DNA of 20,390 nt from a virus, in the IMG/VR virus record IMGVR_UViG_3300031951_013678, positions 1-20,390 of that record; one strand, written 5' to 3'. This document shows positions 2,154 through 20,238 of the stretch, piece after piece (the stretch's first letter is position 1; each line of letters opens with the position of its first letter). The translations under genes were made by a program, and so were the position numbers. The notes beneath the pieces were generated by a model. The model saw only the letters and a program-made list of their open reading frames with translations. It was not told the DNA's origin and searched no databases.

Positions 2154-2558
2154 GTGGCTATTCGCATCGCTGACAGCGTCCGCACCAACCGCGTTGACCA
2201 GATCCGCGCCGCCATCGACGCCGGTGCCGGCGCTGGCCTGGTCCGCATCTACAGCGGCAGCAAGCCGGCCAAGGGTGGCGTGCCCTCGGGCTCGCTGCTC
2301 GCCGAAATCACCCTCGCCGACCCGTGCGGCACGTCGACGACCGGCGTTTTGACGTTCTCGTCGATGCCGCGCACCGACGCGAGCGCGAACAACACCGGAA
2401 CCGCGGCGTTCTTCTATCTCGTCGACAGCACTGGCGCGTTCGTCTGCGATGGCGACATCGCCACGTCGGGCAGCGACCTCAACCTGACGACGACGTCGAT
2501 CACGGCGGGCCAGCCTGTTGAGATTACCTCGTTCACGATCACCGACGGCAACAATTGA
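2154..2558 (+). CDS. probable small virion protein
   Basis: The product has 134 residues and starts at GTG 2154, with AGGAG nine bases upstream. After a short helix (residues 8-24) the chain is beta-rich and full of Thr, Ser and Gly, for example LTFSSMPRTDASANNTGTAA and the C-terminal TSITAGQPVEITSFTITDGN. Such short beta-sandwich-like proteins next to capsid genes are often decoration or neck proteins. That role is inferred from position and composition only. The stop TGA shares one base with the ATG of the next gene (TGATG), so translation is probably coupled. Confidence 0.65.
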   Translation: MAIRIADSVRTNRVDQIRAAIDAGAGAGLVRIYSGSKPAKGGVPSGSLLAEITLADPCGTSTTGVLTFSSMPRTDASANNTGTAAFFYLVDSTGAFVCDGDIATSGSDLNLTTTSITAGQPVEITSFTITDGNN

Positions 2559-2782
2559 TGTCGCAGGCTGTCGATCCGTCGCAAAACCTCGGGCACGCAG
2601 CGTGGTCGCCTGTGGCGGCCCCTGCGGGCGAGGATGGGGCCACGCACGTCTTTTGGGCGTGCGACGCCTGCGGGGCCATCGTGGGCTTCTGGCGCCCCGG
2701 TCACGGGAGCGAGCCCACATCCACCGAGGACGAACCGCCAACCGATGTCGGGGCGTATGCTGGCCGAGTCTGCGGAACCTGA
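2558..2782 (+). CDS. small CxxC-containing protein
   Basis: The product has 74 residues from ATG 2558. This start overlaps the previous stop (TGATG) and is preferred to a TTG one codon earlier. A single CxxC pair occurs in the segment HVFWACDACGAIVGFWRPG, with a third Cys near the C-terminus (RVCGT). The rest is Pro/Glu/Asp-rich and probably flexible. The Cys pair could bind zinc or be redox-active, but only two closely spaced ligands plus one distant Cys are visible, so neither is certain. No family is recognised. It lies between two likely virion genes. Confidence 0.6.
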   Translation: MSQAVDPSQNLGHAAWSPVAAPAGEDGATHVFWACDACGAIVGFWRPGHGSEPTSTEDEPPTDVGAYAGRVCGT

Positions 2783-2789
2783 GGAACCA

Positions 2790-3914
2790 ATGGCGAACAT
2801 CGTCAAGACCCGCAGCACGAACGCAAGCAAGCTGGAACGCTGGCTGGGCAAAGAGCAAGTCGAGGGCATTTCGTCGTCGATGCGCGGATGGTACGGGAAG
2901 CGTCCGATCCTTATCGGCGGCGTGCCCGGCGCGGGCGGCGTGTGGTGCGGCCGCGGCGGCGACTTCGTGGGCAAGATCGATGGCGGCGACTTCGTCGGCC
3001 TCGCTGAACGCTGCGTCGAGCGCGTCGATCACGCCGTCGCCAAGATCGCCGGGCGTCATCGGATGCACGGGTTCTCGTCGCTGTCGGACCTCATCAACGA
3101 GGTGTCGAACTTCGGCAAGCGCAGGGACTTCACGTTCAACAAAGCAGGCACGACTGCCGTCGTTGGCGGAACCAATTCGCTGTGGCGCGTCGGCGCCTAT
3201 CCGGCAGCGGCGAACGCGGCGAGCAACGCGCCCGGCGGCAACGTGCCCACCGACGCGACGCAGGGCGCGTTCTTCTTCGTCAATCCGACCTCGCCGGACA
3301 CGCAGCATTTCGTCCGCGCCGACGTGATGTCATCGGTCGCGCCGCGAAATCTGCTGCTGTACGATCGCATTTTCGAGGTGAACAAGACGATGTCGTCGAC
3401 GACGACGGAGGCCGTTAGCGGCACGCCGACGCGCTACCAGAACACCGCCGACGACCAGCCCGATTCCGCCGATGGCAACTTCCTTGGCATCGAGATTCAA
3501 GCGGCGCTCGGAGCTACGGCGCACAACTGGACCGTCTGCACCTACACCGATCACAACGGCAACGCGGCAACGCTGCCGTCGGTGACGGGCAACGCGAGCG
3601 GCATCGTCAACCGCCTCGATCACCCGCTCAATCAATGGTTCTGCCCGCTGGCGACGGGTGACAACGGGATTCGCACGTTGACGCAGATGCAGTGTTCGGC
3701 ATCGGTGACGGGAACGGTCGCGTTCTTCATCGGGCACCCGATCGCGTGGCTGCCGTGCGTCGTGGCGAACATGATCACGATCGTCGACGGCATCAACACG
3801 GCTTTCAATCTGACGCGCATCTTCGACGACGCTGCGCTTTCGTTCCTCGACGTCAACTGCGCGGCGACGACCGCGCCCACGTTCAACGGGATGTTCGCCA
3901 CGGCGTCGGGCTGA
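2790..3914 (+). CDS. putative virion structural protein
   Basis: The product has 374 residues. ATG 2790 lies five bases after GAGG and eight bases after the previous stop. An upstream in-frame ATG would overlap the previous gene by about 150 bases and lacks a good site. The N-terminal 40 residues are basic. A Gly-rich stretch follows (GGVWCGRGGDFVGKIDGGDF), then a long beta-rich, Asn/Thr/Ala-rich body and a hydrophobic C-terminal part (FFIGHPIAWLPCVVANMITI). The composition resembles the other virion proteins here. I do not recognise a family. It could be a minor head or tail-spike-like component. Confidence 0.65.
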   Translation: MANIVKTRSTNASKLERWLGKEQVEGISSSMRGWYGKRPILIGGVPGAGGVWCGRGGDFVGKIDGGDFVGLAERCVERVDHAVAKIAGRHRMHGFSSLSDLINEVSNFGKRRDFTFNKAGTTAVVGGTNSLWRVGAYPAAANAASNAPGGNVPTDATQGAFFFVNPTSPDTQHFVRADVMSSVAPRNLLLYDRIFEVNKTMSSTTTEAVSGTPTRYQNTADDQPDSADGNFLGIEIQAALGATAHNWTVCTYTDHNGNAATLPSVTGNASGIVNRLDHPLNQWFCPLATGDNGIRTLTQMQCSASVTGTVAFFIGHPIAWLPCVVANMITIVDGINTAFNLTRIFDDAALSFLDVNCAATTAPTFNGMFATASG

Positions 3915-3937: not shown

Positions 3938-5143
3938 GTGCATAAAATTTCCGGCAACGGCCTCGTCGTCCAATCGTGGGCGCAGACGCAGTGGGCGCCC
4001 ACGCTCACTGCGCACGATCCCGACCCGCCGATCACGCTGGAAGATCCGCTCGGTGCCACAGGCACCGCGGCGATCACCCTCGCCACGGTCGTCTCGGCGG
4101 CTTCTGGCTCGCCGGTCGTCACGTCCTCGGGTGCGCCCACGCTGGCCACCGTCGTATCGGCTGGCGCAGGTTCGCCAAAGGTCACATCCTCGGGCTCGCC
4201 CACCCTCGACAGCGTCACCGTAGCGGGCGCAGGCGGGCCGCTGGCGGCCATCACGGGCACCGCGGCGGTCACCCTCGCCACGGTCGTCTCGGCGGCTTCT
4301 GGCTCGCCACGGGTCAATGGCAGCGGCGTCCCCACGCTGGCCACCGTGGTCAGCGCCGCCGCAGGGTCGCCGCGCATCGTCGGCACTGCCGCGCCCACGC
4401 TGGCCACGGTCACGAGCGCGGCCGCCGGCAGCCCGAGGATCGTCAGCACCGCGGCGATCACGCTGGCCACGGTCACGTCATCGGCGACGGGTAGCCCGCG
4501 CGTCACGTCCTCGGGTGCCGTCACCCTGGCATCCGTGGTGGTGGCGGCCGACGGCAACGTGGGCGCCGCAGCCCCCACGGGCACCGCCGCGATCGTCCTC
4601 GCCGACGTCGTCGCCGCAGCCGTCGGCACGCCGATCGTGGTCGGCAGCGTGGCCGCGACGCTGGGTGATGCCACGTCCTCGGCAGCGGGCACACCTGTCG
4701 TCAGCGGCACGCTGGTCCGCACCCTCGACACGGTCGCCATCGCCGCGGCGGGCGGGCAGAAGATCACGGGCGCCGCCGCGCCCACGCTGGCGTCGGTCAC
4801 GGTCGCCGCCTCGGGTATCGTCGCCACCTACGCCAGCGGGGCGCCCACGTTGGCGGACGTCATCCCGCAGGGCATCGGCAGCGCGGTTGAGGCAGCGTCG
4901 GGCGCCGTCGTCCTCGACGACACGGTGGCGCTCGGCGCGGGTCAGACGATCTACCCGGTGGGCGCCGCCACCATCGCCCTCGCCGATGCACTGGCCGCAG
5001 CGACGGGCACCGTGCGCACGCTCGGCACGGCGTCGATTGTCCTTGGTGGCGTCGTCAGCGATGGCGCCGTCGAGGTAGTGCGCGAGCAGAAATACCGGCG
5101 CACCAAGTCTCTCTTGGTGACGGTCGCCAACCGCTACCGATAG
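3938..5143 (+). CDS. repeat-built beta-rich structural protein
   Basis: The product has 401 residues from GTG 3938, eight bases after AGGGGG. After a 38-residue head (with WAQTQWAPTLTAHDPDPPI) come about 16 imperfect repeats of 19-26 residues. Each reads roughly G-T-A-A-x-T-L-A-T-V-x-S-A-A-x-G-S-P-x-V. A basic tail follows (KYRRTKSLLVTVANRYR). The alternation of Thr/Val/Leu with a Gly-Ser-Pro turn suggests two short strands per repeat, as in a beta-solenoid, fibre stalk or decoration protein. Conserved residues are structural, with no catalytic pattern. It sits between head genes and lysis genes. A fibre or head-decorating role is inference. Repeats 1-3 and 4-6 look recently duplicated. Confidence 0.75.
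   Translation: MHKISGNGLVVQSWAQTQWAPTLTAHDPDPPITLEDPLGATGTAAITLATVVSAASGSPVVTSSGAPTLATVVSAGAGSPKVTSSGSPTLDSVTVAGAGGPLAAITGTAAVTLATVVSAASGSPRVNGSGVPTLATVVSAAAGSPRIVGTAAPTLATVTSAAAGSPRIVSTAAITLATVTSSATGSPRVTSSGAVTLASVVVAADGNVGAAAPTGTAAIVLADVVAAAVGTPIVVGSVAATLGDATSSAAGTPVVSGTLVRTLDTVAIAAAGGQKITGAAAPTLASVTVAASGIVATYASGAPTLADVIPQGIGSAVEAASGAVVLDDTVALGAGQTIYPVGAATIALADALAAATGTVRTLGTASIVLGGVVSDGAVEVVREQKYRRTKSLLVTVANRYR
4052..5080 (+). repeat. coding repeat array, about 16 units of about 21 codons
   Basis: The array makes up most of the preceding gene. Unit starts are marked by Gly at the head of each GTAA/GAPT/GAVT-like motif. At DNA level two segments of 53 bases, 4061-4113 and 4256-4308, differ at a single base and are 195 bases (65 codons, three units) apart. 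Other units have diverged at DNA level but keep the protein pattern. Confidence 0.85.
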
Positions 5144-6254: not shown

Positions 6255-7034
6255 GTGACCAAGCCAAAGAAGAAGCACAAGACGCGCGAGGACGTCGAGC
6301 ACATCCTAGTGTGCTCGGACGTCCACGTCCCCTACCATGACCCGTTCGCCTGGCGTGCGTTCCTCGCACGCCTCGACGACGTGCGGCCCGATCGGCTGGT
6401 CATCAATGGCGATTTCGCTGACTTCCTTTCCGTCTCGCTGCACGAGGACGGACAGCCAGCGCCCGAATTCGCTGCCGAGGTCGAGGCCGTGAAAAACGAA
6501 CTCGCGCGGCTGCGGGCGTCGATGGGACAGCGCCCCATCCACTACGTCGAGGGCAACCACGAGCACCGATACGTCAGGTACGTCGCCAAAAGGGCGCCAG
6601 TGCTGCGCGGGCGCGAGACGTGGCAATCGGCCCTCGGCCTCGTCGACCTCGGCATCACGTCGACGTCATACGGCAAGGTCCACAAAATCGGACATCTTGG
6701 ATTCACCCACGGGGTGTACGCGGGCGACGCCTACGCGAAGCAGCACCTCCTGCGGTACGGGATGTCCCTCGTTATCGGGCACTGCCACCGCGCACAGATC
6801 CACACGATGCCCGTCGCTGGCGCCGATGGCTCGCAGCACGTCCGCGGAGGCTTCGGGATTCCTTGCCTCGCCCCCGTCGACGAGGCGCCCTATCTGAAAG
6901 GCCCGACCGGATGGACGCAGGGGCATGGAGAATTCTGGGTCGAGCGCGAGTCTGGGCGTTTTACCGCCGACGTCGTCATCTACACCGGGCAACGCTTCTG
7001 GCGGGACGGCAAGTGCTACGACGGGAGGGCGTGA
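6255..7034 (+). CDS. calcineurin-like metallophosphoesterase
   Basis: The product has 259 residues from GTG 6255, just after a GGGGG run. All metal-binding motifs of the family appear in order: SDVHVPY (Asp22, His24), NGDFAD (Asp53), GNHEHR (Asn101, His102), FTHG (His152) and GHCHR (His176, His178). The protein should hold two metal ions and split phosphoesters. The target (nucleic acid end, cyclic nucleotide or small molecule) cannot be read from the sequence. The N-terminus is very basic (KPKKKHKTR). It lies between the lysin and a small membrane protein, inside a structural operon, an unusual place for such an enzyme. The family assignment is firm and the biological role is open. Confidence 0.88.
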   Translation: MTKPKKKHKTREDVEHILVCSDVHVPYHDPFAWRAFLARLDDVRPDRLVINGDFADFLSVSLHEDGQPAPEFAAEVEAVKNELARLRASMGQRPIHYVEGNHEHRYVRYVAKRAPVLRGRETWQSALGLVDLGITSTSYGKVHKIGHLGFTHGVYAGDAYAKQHLLRYGMSLVIGHCHRAQIHTMPVAGADGSQHVRGGFGIPCLAPVDEAPYLKGPTGWTQGHGEFWVERESGRFTADVVIYTGQRFWRDGKCYDGRA

Positions 7035-7285: not shown

Positions 7286-8197
7286 GTGGCTATGCTGCGC
7301 GTCCTCCTTGGGTCGACCGAGACGATCACGACCTATCCGCGCCTCGCGGCCGATGGCGTGCTGACGTCGCACGTCGCTACGTCGGCGACGGCGCGACGTA
7401 TCGGCACGGGGTCCAGCGACGCGGCAGACGCCTACGTCGCGGCGACCATCGACCCGCTGTCGGCGACGACGCAGGGCGCCCATCAAGAGGGCGACGATTC
7501 GATCACCATGCAGGCCGCGCAGACGTGGGTAGCAGGCCGGCGGTACCTGATCACGGACGCCACCGCCGGACGGGAGATCGTCGTCGTCGCGTCGAAGTCT
7601 GGCCTATCCACTGAGCTGTGGCTGGCCGAGCCTCTGGTCAGCGACGTCGGGAACAACAGCACCGTGCGCGGGATTGCCGTGTCAGTGGCGCTCACGGCGC
7701 AGCAGACGTCGCTGGCGGGTGCTGGCTATGTCCTTTTCCGCTCCACGATCGACGGCGTCACGCGAGAGTGGGAGGAGCCCTTCCGCGTCGTCCGGCGCAT
7801 CACCTCGGTCGCGCTCACGCCCACGCATTTGACGCAGGCCTATCCCGTCGTGCGCAAGCTGGCGTCGGCGACCGATACGACGCTCGAAGAAGCGATCAAC
7901 GCAGCTTGGCACCATCTCGTCACGCCTGCGCTCGCCGCGCGTGGCGTGCTCGACGAGGACATCATGACCGACGACGTGGTGGAGCCGATGCACGCCGCGG
8001 CGTGCGTGCTGCACCTCGCGCGGCAGTGGCCGCAGGCATCGTCCGAGTACGTTGCGCGTCTTGAACAGACCTACGAGCAGATCAAGGCGACGACGTGGGA
8101 CCGGATCGATTTCCTGACGGCGTCGCAAAACGACGTCACGCCTGACGCGCCCATGCCTGGATCGCAGGGCCCGCGCTACGTCGGGATCACGCGATGA
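7286..8197 (+). CDS. putative head-tail connector protein
   Basis: The product has 303 residues from GTG 7286, which directly follows the previous stop. ATG 7292 is an equal alternative, and neither has a strong binding site. The N-terminal 170 residues are beta-rich (TETITTYPRLAADG, AGRRYLITDATAGREIVVV). The C-terminal 120 are mainly helical (DTTLEEAINAAWHHLVTPAL, then EPMHAAACVLHLARQWPQAS and a helix ending in WDRIDF). Helical bundles of this kind occur in neck adaptors. It stands just before a tail terminator-like gene and the tail tube gene, where connectors are normally found. The assignment is by position and secondary-structure pattern. Confidence 0.55.
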   Translation: MAMLRVLLGSTETITTYPRLAADGVLTSHVATSATARRIGTGSSDAADAYVAATIDPLSATTQGAHQEGDDSITMQAAQTWVAGRRYLITDATAGREIVVVASKSGLSTELWLAEPLVSDVGNNSTVRGIAVSVALTAQQTSLAGAGYVLFRSTIDGVTREWEEPFRVVRRITSVALTPTHLTQAYPVVRKLASATDTTLEEAINAAWHHLVTPALAARGVLDEDIMTDDVVEPMHAAACVLHLARQWPQASSEYVARLEQTYEQIKATTWDRIDFLTASQNDVTPDAPMPGSQGPRYVGITR

Positions 8198-8643
8198 GCT
8201 GGGCCGCCGTGCGCCCTATCCTCGTCGGCATCGTCGCCGGTGTCGCGCCCATCGTGCGCAAGCAAGGGCTGCCGTCGAAATTCAAGCACGACGACAACGG
8301 CAGCGAGGGCGAGCCCATCGGCGACAGCCGGCGCTTCTGGCTGTCGGCGAAGTCGGGCAACGCGATCGGCCACGTCCAGCCGACGGCGACGCGCTACCGC
8401 ACCTCCGTCGACGTCGTCGTCGAGTATGTGATGGACGCCGACAGCGCGACGATGGACACCGCAATCGTCGAGGACGCGGTGGAGATCATCCGGGCGCTCG
8501 CCACGTCGACGAATTGGGGTCGACCCGCATCAACGATCGTCGCTGTCTCGCCGGCCGGGGACAGCCTTGGGCCCTTCGTCGTCGAGGACGTCGACGGGGG
8601 CAAGCGGCTGCGCATCACCCTTGACGTGGAGTTCACGCGATGA
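8194..8643 (+). CDS. putative tail terminator / tail completion protein
   Basis: The product has 149 residues from ATG 8194, overlapping the previous stop in ATGA. It begins with a hydrophobic helix (WAAVRPILVGIVAGVAPIV). A beta-helix-beta body follows, containing VDVVVEYVMDADSATM, an amphipathic helix (TAIVEDAVEIIRALATST) and a final strand (KRLRITLDVEFTR). This order (helix, strands, helix, strand) and the length match tail terminator proteins that cap the tail tube and join it to the head. The gene lies between a connector-like gene and the tail tube gene, the normal place. There is no signature motif. Confidence 0.6.
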   Translation: MSWAAVRPILVGIVAGVAPIVRKQGLPSKFKHDDNGSEGEPIGDSRRFWLSAKSGNAIGHVQPTATRYRTSVDVVVEYVMDADSATMDTAIVEDAVEIIRALATSTNWGRPASTIVAVSPAGDSLGPFVVEDVDGGKRLRITLDVEFTR

Positions 8644-9890
8644 CCGACATCCTCCGACTGCAGACCCTGCGCTATGCGCTGCACGCTGACGCGATCACCT
8701 TTGCCGGCACGCCTGGCACGCTGGTCCCGCTTCAGCTTACCGACGACGGCGCGTCGTTCCTCCCGCGCAATCGGACGCCCATTGATCGCAACCTGCGGTC
8801 GCTGTCGGGCCGCCGATTCCCGCACGTCCGCGGTGCGCAGGACGTCGCTGACATCACGGTGGCGACCGAATTCAAGGGCGTGAATTCAAACACGGGCGCG
8901 GCTGTCACCGATTGGGAAGCGAAGATGGAGCAGGGCTACCTGCTCGCCTCGCTGTTCGGCGCGGTGGCGCCCGCGACGACGGGCGCGGCCCCGACCATCG
9001 CCGCTGCTGGTCACACGCCCGCGTCGGGGCTCCTGGCGTTCACCTCCGCCGCGAACGTGCAGAACGGCGCCGTAATTGGATTCGCCACCTCCTCGGGCTT
9101 TCAGGTTGGGCGCGTGGCTTCGGGCGGCGGCGCGTCGACGACGACTGTCACGCTGGACCACCCCTACAGCGGCACGCCGACGAATGCCGCGACGGTGTTC
9201 CGGTTCGCTGTCTATTCGGTCAGCGACAGCGTGACGCAGCACGTCCACGGGTTCTTCTCGGCCGAGGGCGACAACTGGCGCCGCGATTACTTCGGCTGTG
9301 CCCCCATGTCGATGGACCTTGCGATCCCCAACACGGGGATCCTCGGCATGTCGTCGGTGTTCTCGCCGACGTCCTTTGCCGACGTGGCCGAGGCGAACCC
9401 GGCCTACGCCGACCCGACGGCGGGCAGCCCGATCGTGTCCGACGGTGGGATCTTCCGCCTCGACGGAGCCGAATTCCTGCTGCGCAATTGCTCGATCACC
9501 TACAACTGCGCGACGGCTGTGCGCGAGACGGCGAGCCGCGCGAACGGCCGCCTGGGCGGTGTCTGCGGCACCGGCGACGGAAAATCGTTCATGGTCGAAG
9601 GCGAGCTCTACCTTGGCGCCTCGGCGGGCGCGACGGCGCTGGCCGAACTCGTCGACAGCAGCGGCACGCCGTCGATCAATCAGCTCCTCGGCGACAGCGA
9701 CAGCGCGGGTGACGTGTCGACGGTGCGCGAAGTGGCGTTGCAGGTCGGCACCGAGGCCGGGGCTTGCGTGTATGCGCTGCTGCCCACCGCGGATTTTCGC
9801 GCGTCGGTACAGGCCGGCGGCGCGTTCCCCGTCGTGCGTTTTCAGGCGATGGGCACGGGGGCGTTGCCTGCGGTGCTGGCCGTCGGGTAG
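8640..9890 (+). CDS. probable major tail (tube) protein
   Basis: The product has 416 residues from ATG 8640, overlapping the previous stop (ATGA) and preceded by GGAG. The chain is beta-rich with much Gly, Ala, Thr and Ser. It has an N-terminal strand region with KFxR-like spacing (FLPRNRTPIDRNLRSLSGR) and VADITVATEFKGVNS, typical of long tail tube proteins whose first part forms the tube. Residues 115-190 look like a separate beta domain (TVTLDHPYSGTPTNAATVFR). The gene is followed directly by the tail assembly chaperone and tape measure genes, the standard order, and by a strong hairpin. Confidence comes mainly from gene order. Confidence 0.68.
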   Translation: MTDILRLQTLRYALHADAITFAGTPGTLVPLQLTDDGASFLPRNRTPIDRNLRSLSGRRFPHVRGAQDVADITVATEFKGVNSNTGAAVTDWEAKMEQGYLLASLFGAVAPATTGAAPTIAAAGHTPASGLLAFTSAANVQNGAVIGFATSSGFQVGRVASGGGASTTTVTLDHPYSGTPTNAATVFRFAVYSVSDSVTQHVHGFFSAEGDNWRRDYFGCAPMSMDLAIPNTGILGMSSVFSPTSFADVAEANPAYADPTAGSPIVSDGGIFRLDGAEFLLRNCSITYNCATAVRETASRANGRLGGVCGTGDGKSFMVEGELYLGASAGATALAELVDSSGTPSINQLLGDSDSAGDVSTVREVALQVGTEAGACVYALLPTADFRASVQAGGAFPVVRFQAMGTGALPAVLAVG

Positions 9891-9899
9891 CGTCGGCGG

Positions 9900-10550
9900 A
9901 TGCCAGCCATCCTCATCTATCCCGGACAGCAGGGCGACCCAGTCGCCCTGCTGTCCGTTTTGCGCGAGGCCCATGAGGCCGCGCGTGCCGCACGCCAGAC
10001 CGAGATCGACGCACGCCGCAAGGCCCGCGTCCCCCTCGACGACGCGACCAACTGGCAGGAGGTCGCCGAGGCGGTGGCCCGTGCCAGCCTCGCCCACGGC
10101 GAACGTGACAGCGGCAAGGTCGCTGCGGCTGCGCGTGACCTGCTGGCGCACACCGACGGCAACGCGCTGGAGCCGCTGGGCGAGTACCAGCCCGACCCCG
10201 ACCTCGACGGGATCGTGGTGACGATGCGGATCGTCGACGACGCCACCCGTCGCCTGTGGTCCGCGCAGACGCAAGCGGCGTGGATTGCGATCCGCAACAG
10301 CATCAAGTCGGACGACGTCGTGGCCCGCCGCGACGCCTACTCCCGTCTCGAGGCCGTGTATGAAACGGTCATCGTAGGCGTCGTGGCGAAGCTAGACGGG
10401 CTGGAGGGCATGAAGGCTACCGTGGCCGAGTCCATGCCCGCCCTGCGCCTCGCTGGGCTTCTGGTGCCGCTACACGTCGCCGCGCGACACTTCCTTGAGC
10501 TTCCCCCGGGAAAAGCACTGCGCTGTGGGCAGCAACCGCCGTCGACCTGA
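9900..10550 (+). CDS. tail assembly chaperone, unshifted (lambda G-like) form
   Basis: The product has 216 residues from ATG 9900, nine bases after the tail tube stop. The body is helical with many Ala, Arg, Glu and Asp residues (REAHEAARAARQTEIDARR, then NWQEVAEAVARASLAHGE). Its place between tail tube and tape measure genes, and the -1 slip site near its end, identify it as the short partner of a G/GT-type chaperone pair that coats the tape measure protein during tail assembly. It is longer than lambda G (140 residues). The first 20 codons carry a terminator-like hairpin. The last 12 residues, after the slip site, are unique to the unshifted form. Confidence 0.72.
   Translation: MPAILIYPGQQGDPVALLSVLREAHEAARAARQTEIDARRKARVPLDDATNWQEVAEAVARASLAHGERDSGKVAAAARDLLAHTDGNALEPLGEYQPDPDLDGIVVTMRIVDDATRRLWSAQTQAAWIAIRNSIKSDDVVARRDAYSRLEAVYETVIVGVVAKLDGLEGMKATVAESMPALRLAGLLVPLHVAARHFLELPPGKALRCGQQPPST
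9924..9961 (+). terminator. terminator-like hairpin inside the chaperone coding region
   Basis: A perfect 15-bp inverted repeat, GGACAGCAGGGCGAC (9924-9938) and GTCGCCCTGCTGTCC (9942-9956), has a 3-base CCA loop and is followed by GTTTT (9957-9961). It has the form of an intrinsic terminator on the plus strand. It lies 34 bases after the tail tube stop but within codons 9-21 of the next gene. It probably lowers transcription beyond the tail tube gene. When that gene is translated, ribosomes could prevent the hairpin from forming. Confidence 0.75.
10508..10514 (+). other. -1 ribosomal frameshift site GGGAAAA
   Basis: In the chaperone frame the bases read G GGA AAA, the X XXY YYZ form of a -1 slippery site. 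Lambda uses G GGA AAG for its G/GT shift. The -1 frame is open only from 10499 (after TGA 10496-10498), and the chaperone frame closes at TGA 10548-10550. The site therefore lies within the only 50-base window where a shift can join the two frames. A weak 4-bp stem, GCTG/CAGC (10522-10533), follows seven bases later. Confidence 0.85.
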
Positions 10551-10885
10551 GCGAATTTGACTGCTCGCGCTGCCCTGGGGCGCGGCGGCAGGCGTTCGGG
10601 TGCCACGGTGGGGCGTCCATGTCCTTCTTCGCCGCCACCGAGCACGAGACGCGGACCTGTCCACGGCGCCATCTGCTCAATCACCCCGACGTGACGGGGC
10701 CGCTGTCCCTGTGGCGGGCCTGCGAAGGCAGGCCGGGGATCGAGGCCCTGCGCGTGCTGTCGACGCACGCTGTCGATGCTTTTGCCGTCATCGACCGCGG
10801 GCGAAGTGCTAAGATGGCCGACGACGCACGGCAGGCCGAGGCGGCGCGAAGCAGCGCCACGGCGGCCCCACCGCGGAGGCGATGA
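10514..10885 (+). CDS. -1 frame extension of the tail chaperone (T-like domain)
   Basis: Reading AGC 10514 onward in the -1 frame gives 123 residues to TGA 10883-10885. Joined to residues 1-205 of the chaperone, this yields a fusion of about 328 residues. The extension begins STALWAATAVDLSEFDCSRC and contains a Cys-x2-Cys pair plus later Cys/His residues (FGCHGG, then RTCPRRH), a possible zinc site. It ends in an Ala/Arg-rich tail. In lambda-like phages the shifted GT form recruits tail tube protein to the chaperone-coated tape measure. The end overlaps the tape measure start, as expected. Separate initiation at ATG 10619, behind GGTGGGG, would give 88 residues and is a less likely alternative. 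Confidence 0.75.
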   Translation, partial: STALWAATAVDLSEFDCSRCPGARRQAFGCHGGASMSFFAATEHETRTCPRRHLLNHPDVTGPLSLWRACEGRPGIEALRVLSTHAVDAFAVIDRGRSAKMADDARQAEAARSSATAAPPRRR

Positions 10886-12762
10886 TGGCGGGCCAGACGA
10901 TCGAGACAGTCATCACCGTCGACGCGAACCAAGCAATCGCCGAGCTTGCCAAATTCGATCATGAGACAAAGGCGGCCGAAAAGGCCCTGCGCGACGCTGA
11001 CGCTGCGACAAAGGCGTTTGAGAAGACGCAGCGCGAAGCCGTCGCCGCAGTCACTGCGATCGACACGCGGGTCGAGAAATATCAGCGCGACATCGTGGCG
11101 CTGGCGACTGCCATGGCTTCCGGCACGGGCAACACCAAGGCCTACGAAGCCGAAATGCGGCAACTAAACGCCGAGCTTGATCGGCTGAACGGCAAGACAC
11201 GCACGCTGAAACCTTCCATCGCTTCGGTTGCGACCGAAATGCGGAAGGTAGAAAGCTCGGGCAATCAAGCTGCGCTGAAATTAATGACCCTGTCGCAAGC
11301 GGCAGACGATGCGCAGTATGGGCTTCGCGGCATGTTGAACAACATCCCGCAAGTCGTGCAGGCGTTCGGCGGCGGCATGGGCCTCGCTGGCGGCATCAGC
11401 ATCGCCGCCACCGCGCTTTTTCAGGTCTATGACCGCTTCATCGACGTCGGCGATGCCGCCAAGACAGGGACGGAAACTGCCGGGTCATACGTCGACGATC
11501 TGCGCAAAGAGATTTCCGACCTGTCGAAAGAACTGACGGACTTACAAGGCACCGCGACGCGCGTTGCGATGGAGGAGCAGGGCAAGCGCATCGAGATCGC
11601 GGCCAAGGAAGCGCAGGCGATGATCGACGCCGTCGGCGGGCGGGCGCGCCTTGGCGTGCTGGAAGCAGCGACGAAGGGCGGGGCGCAGATGGAGAATCTG
11701 CAATCACGCGCTGAATACATGGCCCGGGACATCGTGTACCGGACGCGAAATCCATTCGTCTCGCCTGAGATGCTGAAGCAAGCGATCGACGCCCGCGAAA
11801 AGCTCGATCTTGAAATGGCCAAGATGGCTGCGATGGCCCGCATCGAGCAGGAGAAGGAAGATCAAAAGAGGATCGATCAAGCTGTCGACGCTGCGAACGC
11901 CATCACCGAGGCCGAGGCCAAGGGAAGCAAGCAGCGGATCGACAACGCCAAGAAGGAGGCGGACGCCAAGTTTGCCATCTTCGTCTCCAGCATGGAGGAG
12001 GAGGAGCGGCAGCTAAAGGAAGTAGCCAAGATGCGCCGCGAGGCGGCCGCGGAGCGAGAGAAGCTGGAATTGGAGCGCATGTCCCTGTCCCTGTCCGGCG
12101 GTTTCGTCAACAACGAAATCCGCGGCGCTGGCGCAGGCACGCAGGGTGCGGCCGCGACTACCGAGATGCAAGCGATGGCCGTCGAGGCGGCCAAGAATGC
12201 CGCTATGGCCGAGGATTGGTCGTTGGCGTGGATCAAGGCTGGCCGCGATGTCGCCGATTCGTTCGGCGACCTGCAATCGGTGGCGACCGGCACGCTGTCC
12301 ACGCTGACGGCAGGGACGCAGCAATACCTCGACGACGTGATCACCGGACAGGAAAACGCTGAGGCGGCGCTTGCGACGATGCTTATGCGCACCGCTGGGC
12401 AAGCCTTGATCGGCAGCGGCATCGACCTCGGCGGCCGCGCTGTGGTGTCTGCTTTCACTGGTCTGCAACCACTGGCAGCGGCGCAGGGCGCAGCAGCGGC
12501 GGGCCTGATTGCGTCTGGTGTCGCGCTGGGCGGCACGGCGACGGGCATCGAGCACATGGCGGCCGGCGGCCAGATCGGCAGGCCGCTGCCAGACAAGTCC
12601 GCCACCGACCGAGGCGCGTCCCCACGCTCGTCCCGCGGCGGCGGAGACGGTGGGCCCCTCGTGATTAATATCAGCTATGGTGTCGGCGGGCCGCTGCCCG
12701 AGGACACCGCACGCGAAATCGCCCGCGTCCAGCGCACGGGTAATCGGAGGTCCGGAGCATGA
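10885..12762 (+). CDS. tape measure protein
   Basis: The product has 625 residues from ATG 10885. GGAGG (10875-10879) lies five bases before this ATG but only two before an adjacent ATG at 10882, so the second is preferred. Residues 20-110 are coiled coil (ETKAAEKALRDADAATKAFE). A Gly-rich hydrophobic stretch at about 155-180 follows (GGGMGLAGGISIAATALFQV). More coiled coil spans about 200-400, then come Ala/Gly-rich hydrophobic helices near 490-560. The Gly/Ser-rich C-terminal region may be processed. Mixed coiled coil and membrane-like helices are typical of proteins that set tail length and leave with the DNA. At about 0.15 nm per residue the tail would be near 95 nm. Confidence 0.85.
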   Translation: MAGQTIETVITVDANQAIAELAKFDHETKAAEKALRDADAATKAFEKTQREAVAAVTAIDTRVEKYQRDIVALATAMASGTGNTKAYEAEMRQLNAELDRLNGKTRTLKPSIASVATEMRKVESSGNQAALKLMTLSQAADDAQYGLRGMLNNIPQVVQAFGGGMGLAGGISIAATALFQVYDRFIDVGDAAKTGTETAGSYVDDLRKEISDLSKELTDLQGTATRVAMEEQGKRIEIAAKEAQAMIDAVGGRARLGVLEAATKGGAQMENLQSRAEYMARDIVYRTRNPFVSPEMLKQAIDAREKLDLEMAKMAAMARIEQEKEDQKRIDQAVDAANAITEAEAKGSKQRIDNAKKEADAKFAIFVSSMEEEERQLKEVAKMRREAAAEREKLELERMSLSLSGGFVNNEIRGAGAGTQGAAATTEMQAMAVEAAKNAAMAEDWSLAWIKAGRDVADSFGDLQSVATGTLSTLTAGTQQYLDDVITGQENAEAALATMLMRTAGQALIGSGIDLGGRAVVSAFTGLQPLAAAQGAAAAGLIASGVALGGTATGIEHMAAGGQIGRPLPDKSATDRGASPRSSRGGGDGGPLVINISYGVGGPLPEDTAREIARVQRTGNRRSGA

Positions 12763-16392: not shown

Positions 16393-17733
16393 ATGCCCCT
16401 CGGATCACGGACACGCGAAGTCGCCAAGGACGCGATCATCACCGAGCGATGGCAAGACAACTTGCGGCAGGACGTCATCGAGGTGCAGGACCGACTGACC
16501 AACGTAAACGGCCTATACACGTCGACGACGATCAACCACACCGGCGGCGGGCGTGGATGCCCGCTCCACCTGCCGCTGACGTCGCAGCGCATCGGCCGAT
16601 CTATTGAGCTAACGTCGACGGACACCGCGGACACGTTTTACATCCTCGCCTTGCCGATCTTTATCCCGGCCGGCAGCCAGCAACAGCACATCCTCGAGGT
16701 CGACTGCCTGCGACGTGGCGACGCTGTCAGCGATGCGGTGTTTGTCGAGGTCCGCAACACATCGTGGACGCTGACCGCGGGCCCTACGCCGATGGTCACC
16801 GCGACGGACACGGGCACTGTCTCTGGCGTGCAGCGGCTTTCGCTGACGCTCGGGACGGGCTGGCAATATCTCCTCGTCTATCGCCGGCTGCTGCCAGGTG
16901 CGCAGACCCTCGACACGCTGGTGGGCTGGCGCCTGTATCCCGATTACGCCTTCGCAGGCGAGTCCAATGGGCTGCTTCCCGTGACAACGACGGCCGGCGG
17001 ATCGCCATATCCTGCACTGACGACACTGACGCCGACGACAGTGGCGCAAAACCAGATCGGCAGCGGCGAGACACAAGAAGGCGTGGGGTCGTTCGCCCGG
17101 CCGCTGAATGCGTTTGTTTTGACGCGGATCAACCGCATGATCGGCACGCTGTGGGAATTTATGACCGGCGCCCCGGTGCCGGGAAACAGTGCGCTAACGA
17201 CGACGACGACGCGCGATCTGAATCAAGCAAATTTCACCACCGAGCCGTCGATCGACTTCCCGATCGCGTGCGTCGCCCTCGGGTCCTACCCGACGACGGG
17301 GACGGCAAAAGGCGGCTGGCTTGGCACTTATGGTGCGTCCCCGACGCAGGGGCCGACGCAGTGGGTGCGCTACCCGCTGACGCAGAACACAGCCACAACG
17401 ATCAACCTGACGTATCTGCGTCAGTGGATGCCGCCCTTCGCCACAGGCGCGTCAAGCAAACTGCGATGCGAGATCCTGTGCGCCAAGTATCAGGCGGCGG
17501 ACACGCTCACCAATTGGCGCTTTACCGTGAACGAAGCGACGGCGGGCAATTCGTCGACGGTGGCGCTGACGCAGATCGGGGCCACGGACTACTTCGTCGC
17601 CAGCATCACCGACGTACGCTTCACTGCGGGCGCAGAAAACTACTTCACGCTCCTGTTGACGTCGACGACGACAGCGGCCCCACTGACGCAAGAGCTGATC
17701 GTCCTTGGCTTCACGCTCGCCTTTGATCCTTGA
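16393..17733 (+). CDS. tail-associated structural protein
   Basis: The product has 446 residues from ATG 16393, one base after the previous stop, with GGTGG upstream. The first 35 residues are a charged helix (REVAKDAIITERWQDNLRQD and following). The remainder is beta-rich with many Thr, Ala and Gly residues. Two regions resemble jelly-roll domains: about 60-180 (ending WQYLLVYRRLLPGAQTLDTL) and 270-446 (QWVRYPLTQNTATTINLTYL and the final FTLAFDP). It may be an upper-baseplate or fibre protein with receptor contact, but no motif proves this. Composition matches the neighbouring virion proteins. Confidence 0.65.
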   Translation: MPLGSRTREVAKDAIITERWQDNLRQDVIEVQDRLTNVNGLYTSTTINHTGGGRGCPLHLPLTSQRIGRSIELTSTDTADTFYILALPIFIPAGSQQQHILEVDCLRRGDAVSDAVFVEVRNTSWTLTAGPTPMVTATDTGTVSGVQRLSLTLGTGWQYLLVYRRLLPGAQTLDTLVGWRLYPDYAFAGESNGLLPVTTTAGGSPYPALTTLTPTTVAQNQIGSGETQEGVGSFARPLNAFVLTRINRMIGTLWEFMTGAPVPGNSALTTTTTRDLNQANFTTEPSIDFPIACVALGSYPTTGTAKGGWLGTYGASPTQGPTQWVRYPLTQNTATTINLTYLRQWMPPFATGASSKLRCEILCAKYQAADTLTNWRFTVNEATAGNSSTVALTQIGATDYFVASITDVRFTAGAENYFTLLLTSTTTAAPLTQELIVLGFTLAFDP

Positions 17734-19545: not shown

Positions 19546-20238
19546 TCACTCCGCAAACATGGTGGGGGTGTAGCCGTTCGCCAACCGCTTGGTTGCGATG
19601 TCGTAGTGCTCGCGCTTCTGCTCGCTGCCCACGCATCGTCGGCCTTCGATCATCGCCGCAAGCGCCGTCGTGCCTGACCCGATGAAGGGGTCGCAGACGA
19701 GGTCACCGGGGCGACTGTAATCGCGCACGATGGAGCGCATCAGGTCGAGGGGCTTGGCGCCTGCGATGCCGACGCCCTTTTCTGTCGGTGCTTCGTACGC
19801 GCCTGGGAGGCACCCCCACGTCGAGAATTCGCGCGTCCGCGGCCTGCTGACCATCGCATACACCGCCCACGACGACGGGCCATCCCCGACAAGGCGCGGG
19901 CGCTTCTGGATGATTGGCACAGGCGCGAACGTGGCGCGTCCTGCGTTTCGGAATGCTTGTTCGTACGCGCCAATCAGATCGTGCGACGTCATGGCAAGCA
20001 TCCACCCGCGACACCGTGGCGCCCACGATTCGACAAATGCGATGACCTCGCTGGGCGTCATCGCGTCGTAGGCGATGGCGGTCCGCTCGGCGCCGTCGGG
20101 CAATTCGCTGCCTGCGATGTGGGCGTTGGTCGCCTCGTGCGTCCGGGCCCCGTAGGGTGGGTCGGTGATCACCGCATCGACACGATCGATCTGCGCCAGC
20201 GCGTCCTGCCAGCGTCCGAGATACAATTGTGCTGTCAT
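19546..20238 (-). CDS. beta-class DNA methyltransferase (N4-cytosine or N6-adenine)
   Basis: The product has 230 residues from ATG at 20238, after GAGGGAG. Catalytic motif IV, DPPY (residues 26-29), comes early. The S-adenosylmethionine motif DPFIGSGTT (residues 183-191) comes near the end, followed by CVGSEQKREHYDIATKRL. This IV-before-I order defines the beta class. The DPPY motif transfers methyl to an exocyclic amino group, either adenine N6 or cytosine N4. The variable target-recognition part lies between about residues 45 and 165. No restriction enzyme gene is beside it, so it is probably an orphan phage enzyme for protection from host restriction or for gene control. Confidence 0.88.
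   Translation of the reverse strand: MTAQLYLGRWQDALAQIDRVDAVITDPPYGARTHEATNAHIAGSELPDGAERTAIAYDAMTPSEVIAFVESWAPRCRGWMLAMTSHDLIGAYEQAFRNAGRATFAPVPIIQKRPRLVGDGPSSWAVYAMVSRPRTREFSTWGCLPGAYEAPTEKGVGIAGAKPLDLMRSIVRDYSRPGDLVCDPFIGSGTTALAAMIEGRRCVGSEQKREHYDIATKRLANGYTPTMFAE

Follow-up and report, generated by a model that had tools for sequence, protein, structure and literature searches.

A probable lambda-type −1 ribosomal frameshift in the candidate tail assembly chaperone gene of a virus lineage without cultured relatives

The stretch of viral DNA analysed here (20,390 nt, hereafter the window) carries, between its probable tube and tape measure genes, a pair of −1-overlapping frames that is best explained by programmed −1 ribosomal frameshifting of the lambda gpG/gpGT type, in the tail assembly chaperone gene of a long-tailed virus; we put the probability of this reading at roughly 0.92. 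A sequence-only reading of the same DNA had proposed a lambda-like join of two tail chaperone frames, and comparison with related contigs strengthened that proposal: the slip site is conserved, separate genes do not occur in its place, and the −1 frame has no conserved start. Judged by this conservation, the frameshift appears to be real and functional. The features concerned are:

8640–9890, + strand: upstream neighbour, probable major tail (tube) protein, by position and phrog_290 matches in relatives
9900–10550, + strand: 0-frame ORF of 216 aa (stop TGA at 10548), candidate gpG-like tail assembly chaperone, supplying the N-terminal 205 aa of the predicted fusion
10508–10514, + strand: slip heptamer G_GGA_AAA (GGGAAAA), in phase and conserved among relatives
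10514–10885, + strand: 123-aa extension in the −1 frame beyond the shift, gpT-like domain, with protein conservation and no conserved start codon
10518–10585, + strand: probable hairpin, 10518–10524 pairing with 10579–10585 and 10527–10530 with 10572–10575
10562, 10571, 10601 and 10658, + strand: four Cys codons of the −1 domain, conserved among relatives
10882–12762, + strand: downstream neighbour, probable tape measure protein, by PHROG matches in some relatives

At the slip site the 0-frame codons are CCG (10506), GGA (10509) and AAA (10512). The −1 frame is open from 10499, immediately after a −1 stop (TGA, 10496–10498), to a TGA at 10883–10885, which overlaps the ATG at 10882 of the probable tape measure gene. 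The layout described from the letters alone, with GGGAAAA in frame at 10508–10514, a −1 frame from 10499, a first frame ending at 10550 and a fused product reaching the tape measure start, was thus correct throughout. A −1 shift here predicts a fusion of 328 aa (205 + 123), with the junction ...LPPGK-STALW. The accompanying argument from the narrowness of the overlap held in part: the overlap in the window is indeed 49 nt, but this narrowness is particular to the window and a few relatives, the open stretch of the −1 frame measuring 184 nt in L009 (whose protein is identical to that of the window), 295 nt in L018 and 304 nt in L019. Four in-phase strong heptamers were counted across all genes of the window, so that the chance of finding one in the overlap is roughly 1%; because such heptamers do arise by chance in these genes, it is conservation, and not the single heptamer, that constitutes the evidence. 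Elsewhere in the window, GGGAAAG lies in phase at 1657–1663 (gene 1538–2011) and GGGAAAC at 17181–17187 (gene 16393–17733).

Relatives were collected by scanning viral contigs with each of the two frames, with the DNA of the junction and with the upstream neighbouring gene, yielding about 35 contigs that span the junction; these are related by descent, and their counts are therefore not counts of independent events. All of them preserve the −1 relation of the two frames and a heptamer positioned exactly 40 nt before the 0-frame stop. In the first scans, every distinct junction (29/29) carried an in-phase GGGAAAA 40 nt before the TGA, with identity of the 0-frame protein reaching down to 39%, and the 21-nt signature GGGAAAAGCNNTGCGCTGTGG was present in 33 viral contigs. 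The upstream neighbour (8640–9890) gave access to two deeper relatives, 36% identical in that protein. These retain both frames and read CCA AAA AAA, that is, A_AAA_AAA, at the 40-nt position, with C_CCA_AAA also present one codon earlier. GGGAAAA thus occupies the site in 33 of the junction-covering contigs and A_AAA_AAA in the two deepest, at an unchanged position, showing that the letters of the slip site changed while the shift and its geometry were kept. The expectation that GGGAAAA would be conserved in related phages was accordingly borne out, with this one exchange.

The codons at the slip are constrained well beyond their surroundings. In a codon alignment of 28 sequences, 27 degenerate residues ahead of the slip are invariant, none of them with an invariant codon, and mean synonymous identity there is 0.53; at the slip, neither GGA nor AAA varies, and the codon before them, encoding Pro, Val or Ala, always ends in G. 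Both invariant codons are minority choices in the window, GGA accounting for 9% of Gly and AAA for 20% of Lys codons. Downstream of the slip, an invariant CGC TGT GGG is explained by dual-frame coding and is by itself no evidence of an RNA element. As a possible Shine-Dalgarno-like stimulator, we considered a GAG kept 8 nt upstream and discarded it: it encodes a conserved Glu, and the fuller GGAG occurs in only about half of the sequences.

Could the two frames instead be separate genes, with translation of the −1 frame beginning at an internal start, either through re-initiation or with the help of a ribosome site of its own? The first −1 candidate, ATG 10619 (position 38), does exist, and in the group of L035 a GGAGG stands 7 nt before the equivalent ATG. 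Among relatives, however, this Met is replaced by Ile, Val or Thr, and the codon lies downstream of both the conserved CxxC and the GKSxALWAAxAVDL stretch. From the slip to the first Cys the relatives share no conserved ATG, GTG or TTG, and a search of the relatives for a conserved start or ribosome site of the −1 frame returned none. Protein conservation of the −1 frame, 39–100% in more than 30 contigs, extends back to the slip and stops there. Separate genes would, moreover, leave the invariant GGA-AAA codons and the constant 40-nt spacing unexplained. The sequence-only reading had named as its refutation related genomes without the slip site in which each frame is a gene by itself and has its own ribosome site; sought also from the neighbouring gene, two independent genes were found in none of the roughly 35 junction-covering contigs. 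Five contigs that match the upstream gene and show no chaperone match (L090, L091, L092, L095 and L097) were rejected as counterexamples, since they end before the place where the chaperone lies in the gene order of their clade. We regard separate genes as very improbable.

Equally improbable, in our judgement, is a joined product arising from slippage of the polymerase rather than the ribosome. The seven-A run of the two deepest relatives could promote such slippage, but all other contigs, the window among them, show three G followed by just four A, and the heptamer keeps to the X_XXY_YYZ phase, which slippage by the polymerase does not require. The least credible alternative is a chance heptamer combined with a sequencing or assembly error, the region being truly a single frame or the −1 frame spurious. 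Although the window is a metagenomic virus contig with other in-phase strong heptamers, the same arrangement recurs in more than 30 contigs with both frames conserved as protein and with turnover of the slip heptamer, and these comparative data already refute an error of this kind.

A hairpin downstream of the slip is probable in the group; in the window it is interrupted and, taken alone, not significant. In most relatives TGCGCTGTGGG, starting 4–5 nt past the heptamer, can pair over 11–14 continuous bases with a 3’ arm located between about +60 and +76. The helix of the window consists of 7 bp plus 4 bp and is not better than in synonymous shuffles, so that the suggestion to fold the region past the slip gave an unremarkable result for the window alone (z −1.0), the hairpin being seen in its relatives. 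For seven representatives combined, which are not fully independent, comparison with synonymous shuffles gave moderate support (Fisher P 0.0016; 2e-6 in the codon-order control). The 3’ arm occurs in different codon registers, although the protein alignment is gapless there: CCCACGGCGCG is read as CCC ACG GCG CG(A), P-T-A-R, in L031 and as (GC)C CCA CGG CGC G, A-P-R-R, in L036, and CCCGCAGCGCG as CCC GCA GCG CG(G), P-A-A-R, in L011 and as (GG)C CCG CAG CGC G, G-P-Q-R, in L074. Because of this shift in register, RNAalifold applied to the full junction did not recover the long hairpin; the two-helix alternative that it returned was supported by one-sided C/T changes only, with no compensatory change, and was not counted. 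An Rfam search gave no match. In the deepest relatives (L120, 6817–6900; L122, 6814–6900) the A7 slip site is followed by a local hairpin (TGCGCTC pairing with GAGCGCG) that is shorter than the long one and stands in its place.

Assignment of the two products to the tail chaperones was approached through gene position and predicted folds. Neither half, in the window or in relatives, had a Pfam or PHROGs match at useful E-values; since tail chaperones share low sequence similarity (PMC5009743), such a match is not what defines this frameshift class. For the confident AF2 model of the 0-frame protein (pLDDT 85.6), the first PDB match was the HK97 tail assembly chaperone (2ob9), weak and only suggestive (E 0.31, TM-scores 0.24/0.39), and the first two BFVD matches, which are its best viral ones, were two forms of the Arthrobacter phage Molivia tail assembly chaperone, the long one of 358 aa and the short one of 204 aa, also weak (E 0.006–0.007). 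Both lie below usual significance, and the expected family is the top match in both libraries; together with gene position, this makes the 0-frame product a candidate tail chaperone. The neighbouring genes were identified through moderate profile matches in relatives. Some relatives of the downstream gene, whose products span 478–626 aa, match PHROG tape measure families (best E 2.1e-5), and 2 of 12 family members of the upstream gene match the phrog_290 minor tail protein (best E 2.6e-8), the tube identity being the more weakly supported of the two. Gene order is not fixed, as about 3.7 kb separate the upstream neighbour from the chaperone gene in one clade. In L093, for instance, the upstream-gene match is at 2508–3737 and the chaperone at 7459, and in the clade that it forms with the five contigs named above, the homologue of 8640–9890 is followed not by the chaperone but by homologues of window 2154–2558, a head structural protein.

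The Cys-x2-Cys noted earlier in the −1 part is present and belongs to a set of four cysteines (C19, C22, C32 and C51 in A9 numbering) that are conserved down to about 40% identity and likely form a putative zinc site. The four-cysteine domain is unlike any profile searched. Structure prediction of the −1 domain alone was poor (pLDDT 70, with disagreeing models) and yielded no fold match.

In lambda, low-level −1 slippage produces gpG and gpGT; the G part sits on the tape measure protein, whereas the T part makes contact with the tube protein. Long-tailed phages have widely kept this arrangement, although their sequences show little similarity (PMC5009743). The GGGAAAA slip site itself has been reported for the actinobacteriophages TM4 (PMC4626039) and Bush (PMC11749239), and the kind of frameshift described here is therefore already known. 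The window differs from lambda G/GT in its slip site (G_GGA_AAA instead of G_GGA_AAG), in having no sequence-profile similarity to it, in the four conserved Cys of the −1 domain and in the hairpin indicated in relatives. With TM4 and Bush it has the heptamer in common; actinobacteriophage chaperones showed no sequence match to the window proteins in tblastn searches of 50,697 phage records. The same records, searched with both halves, the tape measure protein, the tube candidate, the capsid candidate and a late tail gene, gave no match beyond a single negligible one, and a search of genome contigs found no relatives. The lineage is without cultured relatives.

By analogy with lambda, most ribosomes would read 9900–10550 and release the 216-aa protein, and a minority, with the GGA (Gly) and AAA (Lys) tRNAs on G_GGA_AAA, would slip back one base, probably helped by the hairpin that begins 4–5 nt beyond, and read on in the −1 frame, giving the 328-aa fusion with its four-cysteine C-terminal domain. 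The short form may then coat the tape measure protein, with a few copies of the long form recruiting tail tube subunits. More tentatively, and with somewhat less than even confidence, we suggest a gpGT variant whose −1 domain binds zinc (Cys4) and acts as the module that recruits the tube. In this variant a hairpin would tune the shift, its 5’ arm coding in both frames at once and its 3’ arm changing codon register in a way that preserves the pairing.

Several other genes of the window are of note. The gene at 3938–5143, in the head gene region, encodes a 401-aa protein that is built from degenerate units, each about 21 aa long (ATLATVVSAASGSP type; about 4331–4498, 63-nt period), and has no Pfam match. 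A calcineurin-like metallophosphoesterase (6255–7034; PHROG 221, E 1.9e-37) lies within the structural gene region, and a DNA methyltransferase (19546–20238, minus strand; N6_N4_Mtase, E 2e-20) belongs to a block of genes that runs in the opposite direction.

These results allow the lineage’s chaperone genes to be annotated. The conserved junction extends a classic recoding event to a virus group without cultured relatives, indicating that lambda’s way of building tails reaches that far. The nucleotide signature, the exchange of heptamers without change of position and the hairpin that shifts register together offer a clean comparative case of how such a signal evolves.
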